Source of the DNA: an uncultured Pseudodesulfovibrio sp.
Lineage (GTDB): Bacteria > Desulfobacterota > Desulfovibrionia > Desulfovibrionales > Desulfovibrionaceae
Direction of reading: 5' to 3'
NCBI RefSeq assembly: GCF_963677845.1
Contig: NZ_OY782498.1
Coordinates: forward strand, 1,120,001 to 1,184,000
Length of the DNA stretch: 64,000 bases
This document shows positions 51,736 to 54,412 of the stretch, piece by piece (within the stretch, counting starts at the first letter, position 1; the number at the start of each line of letters is the position of its first letter). The translations under genes were made by a program, and so were the position numbers. The notes below the pieces were generated by a model. That model ran no database searches. It was not told the DNA's origin and saw nothing but the letters and a program-made list of their open reading frames with translations.

Positions 51736-52167
51736 CTACATGGCGTAGAGTTTGTCGCCGGGGATGATGGCAATATTGTTTTTCTGTAACAATTCAATGC
51801 CTTGGTCGGTGCGGTCAAAACGGAAGATAAGCACCGCCGAGTCTCCGCTTTGCTGTACAAATGCGTACATGTATTCCACATTAATACCGGCATTTTGAAG
51901 CATGCTCAGAATGGCGTGCAATCCACCAGGATCGTCGGAAACCTTGACGGCAACAACCGAGGTGCGACCAACGGTAAAGCCTGCTTCCTTTAATGTGTCC
52001 TTGGCTTTGGTAAAGTCGGATACAATTAGGCGCAGGATGCCGAAATCCGAAGTGTCTGCCAGAGACAATGCGCGGATATTTACGCCAGCCTCGGAAAGAA
52101 TACGGGTTACTTCAGCGAGACGTCCGGCTCGATTTTCCAGAAATATGGAGAGTTGATCTACTTTCAT
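51736..52167 (-). CDS. Tandem ACT-domain protein paired with PaaK
   Basis: 143 residues made of two ACT domains: residues 1-65 ([22 protein letters not shown]) and 70-140 ([19 protein letters not shown]). ACT domains bind amino acids and regulate metabolism. The gene lies 26 bp after the phenylacetate-CoA ligase gene, a pairing common in anaerobes, so it probably senses an aromatic or related amino acid and modulates the ligase or a connected enzyme. GGAGAT lies before the ATG. Its operon carries the Phe-rich leader described at 53616. Confidence 0.92.
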
Positions 52168-52193: not shown

Positions 52194-53498
52194 TTAGCCT
52201 TCTTTTCTCTTGTCGATGATGCGCTTGGCTTTACCCACAGAGCGTTCAATCTCTTTGGGACTGACCAATTTTACCTTGGCGGTGACACCGAGGAATTCTT
52301 TAATGTTTTTCATTACCTTTGATTCGACGCGTTGTAAATTCTTAATCTCATCGGAGAAAATGGACTCGTTGACTTCCACTTGAACTTCCAGAGTATCAAG
52401 GTTGCCCTTGCGATCAACAATAAGTTGGTAGTGTGGAGTTAACCCTTCGGTTTCAATGAGTATTGATTCGATTTGAGACGGGAAGACATTGACGCCGCGG
52501 ATGATGAGCATGTCGTCCGAGCGACCAGTTACACGCTTCATGCGGGCAGTGGTGCGACCACATTTGCAGGGCGTGGTGTTCAAGGTGGTCAGGTCGCGTG
52601 TTCGATAACGGATGAGCGGGATGCCTTCTTTGGTCAGTGTCGTGAAGACCAACTCGCCTTCCTCTCCCGGAGCAACAGGCTCGCCGGTTTCGGGGTTGAT
52701 CGTTTCCGCAAGGAAGTGATCTTCCTGAATGTGCAGTCCGTCTTGAGCTTCAAGACATTCAATAGCAACACCAGGTCCCATGATTTCGGACAGGCCGTAG
52801 ATGTCGATGGCTTTGATGCCAAGTTTTTTCTCGATTTCAAGACGCATTTCGTTGGTCCATGGCTCAGCACCGAAAATACCGATGCGCAAGGGGAGCTTCT
52901 TGATATCGATGCCCATTTCCTCGCCGGTTTCTGCCAGGAACAGGGCGTAAGATGGAGTGGCGCAGATGACATCCGGTGCGAAATCCTTGAGCAGGGTAAC
53001 CTGTCTGCGGGTGGCGCCACCGGAAATGGGAACGACTGTCGCCCCTAGGGCTTCTGCGCCGTAGTGCGCGCCAAGGCCGCCTGTGAACAAACCGTAACCG
53101 TAGGCGTTGTGTACGGTGTCACTGGCCGACGCTCCTGCTGCCATGAAGGACCGGGCCATGAGTTCGCCCCAGTTTTTGATGTCACGCTTGGTGTAGCCAA
53201 CGACTGTCGCTGTGCCGGTGGTGCCGGATGAAGAATGGAGACGGACAATCTGGTCTTTAGGGACCGAGAAGAGGCCGAAGGGGTACTGATCGCGAAGATC
53301 CTGCTTGACGGTGAATGGGAGCAGGGTGAGGTCTTTCAGGCTTTTGATGTCTTGAGGCTTAACACCTTTCTCGTCAAATTTTTTCTTATAGAACGGGACA
53401 TTGGCATATACTCGTTCACAGAGAGCCTGGAGCCTTCGGAGCTGTATTTTTTCCAGATCTTCTCTGGGCAGGGTTTCATTCTTTACATCATAAATCAT
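52194..53498 (-). CDS. paaK: Phenylacetate-CoA ligase (aryl-acid-CoA ligase)
   Basis: 434 residues from ATG 53498, with AAGGAGG upstream; the frame is open further 5' into the leader but without start signals. AMP-forming ligase motifs are intact: the P-loop [25 protein letters not shown], and [16 protein letters not shown] at the hinge before the C-terminal domain. It activates phenylacetate or a similar aryl acid to the CoA thioester in the cytosol. In anaerobes the product can be formed or consumed by indolepyruvate oxidoreductases; those genes are not in the window. The upstream attenuator suggests control by phenylalanine supply. Confidence 0.92.
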
Positions 53499-53550
53499 CC
53501 CTAGAACCTCCTTGCGCGGCCTTAATCGGCCCATGTTGACAAAATAAAAA

Positions 53551-53613
53551 ACCACGGTCCTTTCGGCCCGTGGTCTGATTAGCGTTTTTACCGCTCCAAA
53601 TACTCCACGAGCC
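53551..53613 (-). promoter_or_regulatory. Attenuator: mutually exclusive antiterminator and terminator hairpins
   Basis: Read on the minus strand. Segment 2 (53613-53605) is GGCUCGUGG, segment 3 (53573-53565) is CCACGGGCC, and segment 4 (53557-53551) is CCGUGGU. Segments 2 and 3 can pair over nine positions (one G-U) as antiterminator. ACCACGG (53574-53568) and segment 4 pair over seven, with an inner CC-GAAA-GG cap and a UUUUUAUUUU tail, as intrinsic terminator. Both use the same bases, so only one can form. A small AGCG/CGCU hairpin (53595-53581) lies in the antiterminator loop. Confidence 0.8.
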
Positions 53614-53615
53614 AC

Positions 53616-53669
53616 CTACTGGGGGCACATAAAGAAGAAAAAGGAGCGAAATACGAGGAAATTTTTCAT
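53616..53669 (-). CDS. Phe-rich leader peptide of the paaK-ACT operon
   Basis: 17 codons: MKNFLVFRSFFFFMCPQ, with six Phe, four of them consecutive at 53631-53642. The UAG stop lies two bases before antiterminator segment 2. The arrangement matches leader peptides of Phe-regulated operons such as pheA and pheST of E. coli. A ribosome stalled at the Phe run would leave segment 2 free; a ribosome reaching the stop would cover it. The weak point is the lack of a clear Shine-Dalgarno sequence (only GGGG about 13 bases upstream). GCCCCC (53626-53621) can pair imperfectly with GGUGGC (53616-53611) as a pause hairpin. Confidence 0.75.
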   Translation of the reverse strand: MKNFLVFRSFFFFMCPQ

Positions 53670-53821
53670 AAAGGAGAGACTGCCCCATGTTCCCGACTCC
53701 GTCAAGGGGTTTATCATTGGGCCGCAGCAAGGAACACGATAAGAAAGGAAAGGTTCCTGCCATTGCGGACCGGGGCAAAGTGCATTACATGGCTATGAGT
53801 CGCCTAACGAATGAGGTTTAT

Positions 53822-54412
53822 ATGCAGTTCAGGGAATTAATGGTACAGAATAGGTCGCGGCGGAAATTCGACGAATCCCGACCGGTGGACATACAGACAT
53901 TGGTCGACTTGGTTGAATTGACTCGATTCATGCCGTCAGGCAGGAACATGCAGCCGTTGAAGTACATTGCTGTCGCAGATAAAGTACAGTGTGATGCCAT
54001 TTTCCCGTTGTTGGGATGGGCTGGTTACCTTAAGGATTGGAAAGGGCCTGCTGAAGGTGAGCGTCCAACCGGGTATATTGTCGTGATGCTCGACAGGAGT
54101 TTGGCAGATGATCCTGGGTGCGATCATGGTATTGCCAGTCAATCCATCATGCTGGGGGCCGTGGAAAAAGGGTTTGGTGGATGCATTATTGGGACGGTTA
54201 ACAGAAGGAAACTGTCTCGGATGCTCGACCTGCCGGAAAATTTCGATATACTTCTGGTGTTGGCACTTGGTGTGCCAGCTCAGGATGTGGTGGTGGAACC
54301 GCTTCCATCCGACGGAAGTATACACTATTGGAGCGGTGACGATGACAGGCATCATGTGCCCAAACGTGGGTTGGATGATTTGCTTGTTGGATGTTACCCG
54401 GAAAAAGAATAA
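53822..54412 (+). CDS. Nitroreductase family protein
   Basis: 196 residues from ATG 53822, with GAGG five bases upstream. The FMN-binding N-terminus NRSRRKFDESRPV, the SGRNMQPLKYI loop and the GGCIIGTVNRRKL stretch identify the nitroreductase/FMN-dependent oxidoreductase fold. The frame is open from ATG 53687, which has AAGGAGAG upstream, but the extra 45 residues are polar, unlike the family, and would cover the paaK operon's control region; I therefore prefer the shorter form. The substrate is unknown. rsfS follows 27 bp later. Confidence 0.85.
   Translation: MQFRELMVQNRSRRKFDESRPVDIQTLVDLVELTRFMPSGRNMQPLKYIAVADKVQCDAIFPLLGWAGYLKDWKGPAEGERPTGYIVVMLDRSLADDPGCDHGIASQSIMLGAVEKGFGGCIIGTVNRRKLSRMLDLPENFDILLVLALGVPAQDVVVEPLPSDGSIHYWSGDDDRHHVPKRGLDDLLVGCYPEKE

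Follow-up and report, generated by a model that had tools for sequence, protein, structure and literature searches.

The leader described here lies on the minus strand of a 64,000-nucleotide stretch of DNA from an uncultured Pseudodesulfovibrio (the whole of the stretch analysed, referred to below as the window), between a divergently oriented nitroreductase-family gene (53822-54412, plus strand) and paaK (52194..53498, minus strand), which encodes a phenylacetate-CoA ligase-like protein of 434 amino acids. The next gene after paaK on the same strand (51736..52167) encodes a 143 amino acid protein with an ACT domain pair (PF19571, 105.7 bits) and is itself followed by an Hpt-domain gene. In addition to matching PF00501 and PF14535, PaaK scores 629.2 bits against the equivalog model TIGR02155, just below the cut-off of 646.3 bits, and for this reason we refer to it as a PaaK-like ligase with phenylacetate as its presumed substrate.

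All elements of the leader are read on the minus strand. A -35-like box, TTGACG (53700..53705), whose TTGAC begins 36 nt 5' of the leader ATG, is followed 17 nt further on by a -10-like box, CAGTCT (53677..53682), lying 7 nt ahead of that ATG. The ORF itself, MKNFLVFRSFFFFMCPQ, has 17 codons (53616..53669; ATG at 53669, stop codon TAG at 53618-53616), is identified by direct reading and by conservation, and is predicted to be leaderless. Four consecutive Phe codons (TTT TTC TTC TTT, 53631..53642), picked out by sequence and codon conservation, form the proposed stall site. Two nucleotides (GT) past the stop codon begins antiterminator arm A, GGCTCGTGG (53605..53613); its partner, arm B, CCACGGGCC (53565..53573), is shared, being able to pair either with arm A or with the 3' arm of an intrinsic terminator hairpin, GACCACGGGCCGAAAGGACCGTGGTT (53550..53575, folding energy -15.8 kcal/mol), and both arms and the terminator are backed by covariation. 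The U-rich tail, TTTTTTATTTT (53541..53551), follows, its first two U also lying inside the folded hairpin, and paaK has a Shine-Dalgarno sequence of its own, AAGGAGG (53507..53513). The leader frame, the two arms and the terminator with its tail had been proposed in an earlier, sequence-only reading of the window, and they hold base for base on the minus strand with two refinements: the four Phe codons noted there are the consecutive ones among six in all, and the complement between arms A and B, given as nine positions, spans ten, two of which are U-G.

The statistics of this single sequence are as follows. Six Phe codons among 17 give a binomial p of ~5e-5, a value calculated for one ORF at an assumed Phe frequency of 4.2% and uncorrected for the number of ORFs, and the leader folds with a z-score of -2.45 relative to shuffled sequences, 3/200 of which fold equally well. 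CAGTCT is a poor match to TATAAT and went unreported by a generic promoter scan; that scan returned no promoters and no terminators at the leader, and the terminator call accordingly relies on our own script and on folding. An Rfam scan of the window returned only rRNA and tRNA, with no leader family at gathering score here, and a T-box (RF00230) in the window was rejected as a candidate because the model gave no match. The free fold of the leader shows other upstream hairpins. No protector (1:2) hairpin was identified in the leader, and an untranslated leader might therefore read through. The support for the leader is decisive through conservation, not through single-sequence statistics.

At E <= 0.001, 147/149 family genomes yielded PaaK matches, weaker paralogues included, and further matches came from 80 retained public contigs. 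Among 111 distinct upstream regions with PaaK identity of at least 64%, our script detected a terminator in 25; one more leader (L003), missed by the script, brought the set to 26. A covariance model built from those 26 paaK leaders and searched under strict filters in 288 family genomes confirmed a paaK leader in at least 52 of them, distributed over at least 5 of 44 genera: 35/36 genomes of the window's genus, 11/17 of g7 (which we take to be Maridesulfovibrio-like), 3/3 of g13, 2/3 of g28 and 1/1 of g22. The sole exception in the window's genus, G275, in which no paaK leader was confirmed, is 81% complete. For the remaining 39 of the 44 genera, no paaK leader was confirmed among the matches listed, the weaker of which were partly inspected. 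Adjacency to paaK was established by tblastn in 42 loci (41/41 top-match loci together with L255) and from coordinates or earlier sequence for 10.

The leader peptides are variable (examples are MQKYLSSHAFFFTGS, MFNHDFFTFFFFFFFKTEI and MLDNALFQRFTGFFSGFFTEPQEPVA) with their Phe codons mostly retained: 46/52 leaders have at least three and the other six have fewer than three. In five paaK leaders (L196, L199, L200, L202 and L203) the run reads FFWF, with a Trp codon within the Phe run. C residues within the pyrimidine stretches of these ORFs occupy codon position 3 in 111/151 cases, a descriptive figure given that the sequences are related; judged by sequence, this bias is a coding-type pattern. 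The sequence-only reading had set conservation in relatives beforehand as the check on which it might fail; both the peptide and the alternative pairing are kept, and the idea survived. The same data bear on whether the locus might be no more than a pyrimidine-rich stretch that happens to precede an unrelated terminator. Short ORFs are common and the generic scan saw neither promoter nor terminator, but retention of the leader in 52 genomes, the coding-type C pattern and the covariation of the arms described below leave chance origin with a probability close to nil, and we rejected it on these comparative grounds. In two g7 species (L100 and L101) the promoter-like box is kept and a Phe-rich frame lacking an ATG can be made out by eye, with no terminator; the switch there seems to have decayed.

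Where transcription might begin is suggested by the spacing of these elements. TTGAC is invariant in the 26-row leader alignment, and over the 52 leaders its distance to the ATG is 36 nt in 37, 37 nt in 9, 35 nt in 5 and 38 nt in 1. The ATG was sought 33-41 nt from a TTGAC, making its presence partly a matter of construction, but not the peak at 36. Given a 17-nt spacer, the hexamer at the -10 offset ends ~7 nt ahead of the ATG; its second base is A and its sixth T in 34/52 leaders. By the typical distance between a -10 element and the start site, the first transcribed base would be the A of the leader ATG or one adjacent to it, and the ORF would be leaderless. Two weak points acknowledged in the sequence-only reading look different as a result. 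The missing Shine-Dalgarno would be explained by a leader ORF predicted to stand at the very 5' end of its transcript, and the want of a clear promoter is offset in part by a TTGAC box lying 35-38 nt before the ATG in 52/52 leaders, although the generic scan recognised no promoter. A precedent exists in the trpL gene of Sinorhizobium meliloti, whose attenuator transcript begins with the leader-ORF ATG (PMC7298713).

Among the first 26 leaders arm A starts -1 to 5 nt past the stop codon in 18 and overlaps the stop in five (g13 and g28); in three (L088, L089 and L090) it was not found in place. The distance from the last Phe codon to arm A, in the 23 leaders that have one, is 7-28 nt. Compared with dinucleotide shuffles, the arm A match reaches p 0.05 or lower in 17/26 and falls short of it in 9/26 (L004, L007, L087, L088, L089, L090, L110, L117 and L157).

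Covariation was computed on an alignment of 52 rows, 51 of them distinct, with shuffles that ignore relatedness. The antiterminator pairing is intact in 93.6% of cells and shows changes on both sides at 4/8 pairs, and neither its both-side changes nor its covariation score was reached by any of 500 shuffles; with 26 rows, its covariation was no higher than in shuffles. Sliding one arm by +3 yields more both-side cells (9 versus 7) but far fewer paired cells (38% versus 94%), and a slide of +2 ties with the true pairing in pair types. For the terminator, 98.5% of cells are paired over the 52 rows, again with both-side changes at 4/8 pairs, and its 30 both-side cells and its covariation score were each reached by 0/500 shuffles; in further pair types it is not above shuffles, 500/500 of which reach the count. 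Together with the hairpin energy this supports the terminator sharing arm B that the sequence-only reading had called. The most telling cases for a switch between A:B and B:C pairing are two leaders in which all three arms change together: at one position, L253 has U, A and U in arms A, B and C in place of C, G and C, and at another L255 has C, G and C in place of U, A and U.

Folding points the same way. In a ribosome-stalled fold, which runs from a ribosome on the Phe run to the end of arm B without the 3' arm and counts any upstream partner of arm B, arm B pairs with upstream sequence (at least six pairs) in 48/51 leaders; with the 3' arm omitted, the result speaks for an antiterminator able to form early but not for its prevailing at equilibrium. 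Placing the ribosome on the stop codon instead gives the terminator in 48/51 leaders. L199 has no terminator according to the script, yet one with an interrupted tail can be read from its sequence. These results bear on the possibility that the leader is conserved and that control is exerted mainly by transcription-translation coupling or by Rho rather than by exchange of the A:B and B:C pairings. The modest antiterminator covariation and the three leaders that keep a terminator with arm A out of place (L088, L089 and L090) speak for such control; set against them are the three-way covariation and the 48/51 leaders able to fold as the switch predicts, and we think it quite improbable.

Sequence and folding provide three features of a ribosome-mediated attenuator, namely a Phe-rich ORF, an intrinsic terminator and a mutually exclusive antiterminator whose 5' arm a ribosome would hide on reaching the stop codon, and the ribosome-dependent attenuation put forward in the sequence-only reading is supported, with Phe codons, antiterminator and terminator kept and both-side changes in both pairings. 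In the mechanism that we propose, transcription would begin on or right beside the leader ORF's ATG. When Phe is ample, the ribosome would reach the stop codon and cover arm A; arm B would then form the terminator with the 3' arm, halting RNA polymerase in the U-tract. When Phe is scarce, the ribosome would stall in the Phe run and leave arm A free to take arm B ahead of synthesis of the 3' arm, allowing transcription to continue into paaK-ACT. PaaK would then convert phenylacetate to phenylacetyl-CoA, from which indolepyruvate:ferredoxin oxidoreductase (IOR) would form phenylpyruvate by reductive carboxylation, with transamination giving Phe; the ACT protein may act as a Phe sensor. Very probably, then, a short RNA leader turns paaK on at Phe shortage, and we hold with considerable confidence the wider proposal that a ribosome-dependent attenuator sensing charged tRNA-Phe controls paaK-ACT and that PaaK and IOR supply Phe.

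Attenuators of this kind are already known. The leaders of Escherichia coli pheA and pheST are classical examples of ribosome-mediated attenuation, with a Phe-rich peptide and release on Phe starvation, and the paaK leader shares with them the Phe-rich leader peptide, the terminator, the competing antiterminator and the predicted release on Phe starvation. It differs from them in its target, paaK-ACT, in its predicted leaderless ORF and in that no protector hairpin was identified. Its predicted transcript start at the leader-ORF ATG would match that of S. meliloti trpL, which concerns Trp, the gene trpE(G) and Alphaproteobacteria (PMC7298713).

The covariance model, although built only from paaK leaders, found two further leaders in the window's genome, both read as aromatic attenuators and likewise predicted to be leaderless. 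One has a Phe run, MHNITTRFFFFFSFYFKNACGLGVH (L213; C1:1699600-1699779, plus strand), and precedes the gene for a stand-alone synthase of 2-amino-3,7-dideoxy-D-threo-hept-6-ulosonate (ADTH), which scores 405 bits against TIGR01949 (cut-off 299). The other, with the ORF MNSTTVFNASFSNFTFWYWYSHARGLGRGAL, contains Phe, Trp and Tyr codons (C1:516721-516799, corresponding to L181:8793-8888, minus strand; the model matched the 3' part of the leader). It precedes genes for ADTH synthase, DHQ synthase II and pheA, and further along that strand come aroA-, tyrA-, trpE-, trpG- and trpD-like ORFs, which were named by eye. The two leaders make this a two-isozyme arrangement. We inspected 29 second-tier matches to the model, of which one (L255) is a paaK leader and 28, including one in the window's own genome, are not. 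Their targets are ADTH synthase in 20 cases, a symporter of the SSS family in seven and a trpB-like gene, assigned by eye, in one. Mixed F/Y/W peptides are seen in the five second-tier leaders next to DHQ synthase II, and Phe runs in most of the remaining ADTH synthase leaders, an exception being L228 with YYYY. The paaK leader resembles these and, as judged by the shared model, probably belongs with them to one family of attenuators of aromatic biosynthesis.

A second, unrelated type of leader is found ahead of paaK outside the family. Fifty-nine distant paaK loci (identity below 72%) were collected and 40 of these were covered by an Rfam scan, in which three (L034, L035 and L051) proved to have a T-box immediately ahead of paaK; assignment to Bacillota follows the labels of these three, two Bacillota and one Eubacteriales. 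No T-box was found in nine loci, all of which have an IorA relative near paaK. In the family of L034, the closest paaK orthologue was present in 9/10 genomes and a T-box stood ahead of it in 8/9 (L034, L035, L295, L296, L297, L298, L300 and L310); in the ninth, L299, the contig reaches only 161 nt upstream of paaK. With L051, this makes nine Bacillota genomes with a T-box on paaK. The scores are 89.7-122 bits, the lowest (L296, at 89.7) being under the 93-bit cut-off.

The specifier is UUC (Phe) in 9/9 of these T-boxes, one base past the conserved GAA, or two in L298. Specifiers were taken from Rfam alignments, and the register was checked against other T-boxes of the same three genomes, the genes being named by eye: IleS gave AUC, LeuA CUC, ValS GUC, IlvB GUC, TyrS UAC and PheS UUC, the PheS T-box sharing GAAGUUCC with the paaK T-box of L051. 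The register is one shorter, with GAA directly followed by the codon, in the SerA (UCC) and the TrpE and TrpB (UGG) T-boxes, and a MetS T-box (L287) could not be clearly aligned at the specifier. T-boxes sense uncharged tRNA, from which it follows that paaK in these Bacillota should respond to Phe starvation. The paaK leader and T-box riboswitches (RF00230) would have in common a tRNA-charging signal and, in Bacillota, the same target; T-boxes differ in binding tRNA directly and having no leader peptide. The T-boxes also bear on whether the leader might work as TnaC does, with the ribosome stalling on excess Phe and paaK switched on when Phe is abundant. Induction of that type would suit a catabolic paaK. 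It is contradicted, however, by Phe codons that vary in place within an otherwise variable peptide, unlike a sequence-specific arrest peptide, by an arm A just after or over the stop, where a ribosome favours termination, and by the Bacillota T-boxes, which respond to uncharged tRNA. We rejected it on these three grounds as very improbable.

What PaaK contributes to the cell depends on the direction of the pathway in which it acts. The textbook role of paaK is phenylacetate degradation, and the direction in which IOR and an AMP-forming arylacetate-CoA ligase work in anaerobic bacteria, to or from aromatic amino acids, looks unsettled. Both enzymes are encoded in the window's genome, the PaaK-like ligase and an IOR whose IorA subunit scores above the cut-off. 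Around paaK in the fetched flanks of the 59 distant loci, a relative of IorA and/or IorB is present in 34 and an ACT gene in 42. These relatives are 35-56% (IorA) and 31-42% (IorB) identical to the subunits of the window's genome, distant enough that some may be other, paralogous 2-oxoacid oxidoreductases. Around the genome's own IOR genes, no Phe leader was found by a scan for leaders rich in a single amino acid or by the covariance model; the silence of the leader scan is weak by itself, because the same scan overlooked the F/W/Y leader ahead of the cluster with pheA. The window's genome also has pheA. That leader-bearing genomes might do without prephenate dehydratase was considered and rejected, as the enzyme is present in 263/288 family genomes. 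The PaaK route is consequently at most a second one, a salvage route beside de novo Phe synthesis.

The logic of the attenuator fits a biosynthetic rather than a catabolic PaaK, as Phe starvation should not switch on a phenylacetate-CoA ligase that serves breakdown. With two unrelated starvation sensors predicted on paaK, the simplest reading suggests that PaaK-ACT, probably with IOR, makes Phe from phenylacetate. The alternative is that the attenuator is real and that PaaK and IOR nevertheless run in the catabolic direction, from Phe to phenylacetate, or are put to some other use, with Phe-starvation control incidental. The textbook role of paaK and the presence of de novo Phe synthesis would agree with this. 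So would cited work according to which the IOR of Bacteroides thetaiotaomicron takes part in conversion of Phe to phenylacetate (PMC13285125). The sensors found on paaK in two phyla and the sister leaders on aromatic biosynthesis genes argue the other way, as does the argument, made in that same paper, that AMP-forming ligases favour acyl-CoA formation (PMC13285125), and we regard this alternative as unlikely. That source also describes, for methanogens, a proposed salvage of aryl acids to aromatic amino acids by IOR, and suggests no more than that an AMP-forming ligase beside IOR in Bacteroides may be biosynthetic (PMC13285125, 2026). The pathway outlined here resembles the methanogen proposal in the reductive carboxylation of arylacetyl-CoA by IOR, and differs in its bacterial AMP-forming PaaK-like ligase with an ACT partner and in having RNA-level evidence for direction.

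On balance we favour, as the likelier account, one in which PaaK-ACT and IOR form a Phe salvage route in anaerobes from two or more bacterial phyla, where RNA sensors that arose twice independently would induce it when Phe runs short. In Desulfovibrionaceae, this route would be part of a small regulon of leaderless aromatic attenuators that takes in ADTH synthase, the pheA/tyrA/trp cluster and, for part of the species, the sodium/solute symporter. The unexpected elements are the target gene, paaK, and the convergence of two phyla upon it. No earlier account of Phe-sensing leaders on paaK was found, by title and start of abstract, among the papers listed in searches of the open-licence literature. 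Leaders in two phyla that would place a ligase gene under Phe starvation amount to independent evidence for the biosynthetic direction, which becomes testable in culturable Pseudodesulfovibrio. They also counsel caution, in that not every paaK should be annotated as degradative, and suggest that phenylacetate from other anaerobes can serve as a source of Phe.

Other targets of these two types of leader were also seen. Phe-rich leaders stand ahead of the SSS-family sodium/solute symporter gene at seven loci (L214, L224, L256, L257, L259, L262 and L222), the last of which encodes a protein with only 25% identity to the symporter query and has, by eye, a Shine-Dalgarno sequence; the symporter possibly imports an aryl acid or an aromatic amino acid. 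In another genus, a leader with the peptide SSYSWWWLW (L227) precedes the trpB-like gene identified by eye. As for T-boxes, the L034 genome has one (L281) with the Phe specifier UUC ahead of a gene that by eye is DAHP-synthase-like, and in the genome of L051 another (L274), with an apparent UAC (Tyr) specifier in the one-base-shorter register, precedes a further SSS-like transporter.
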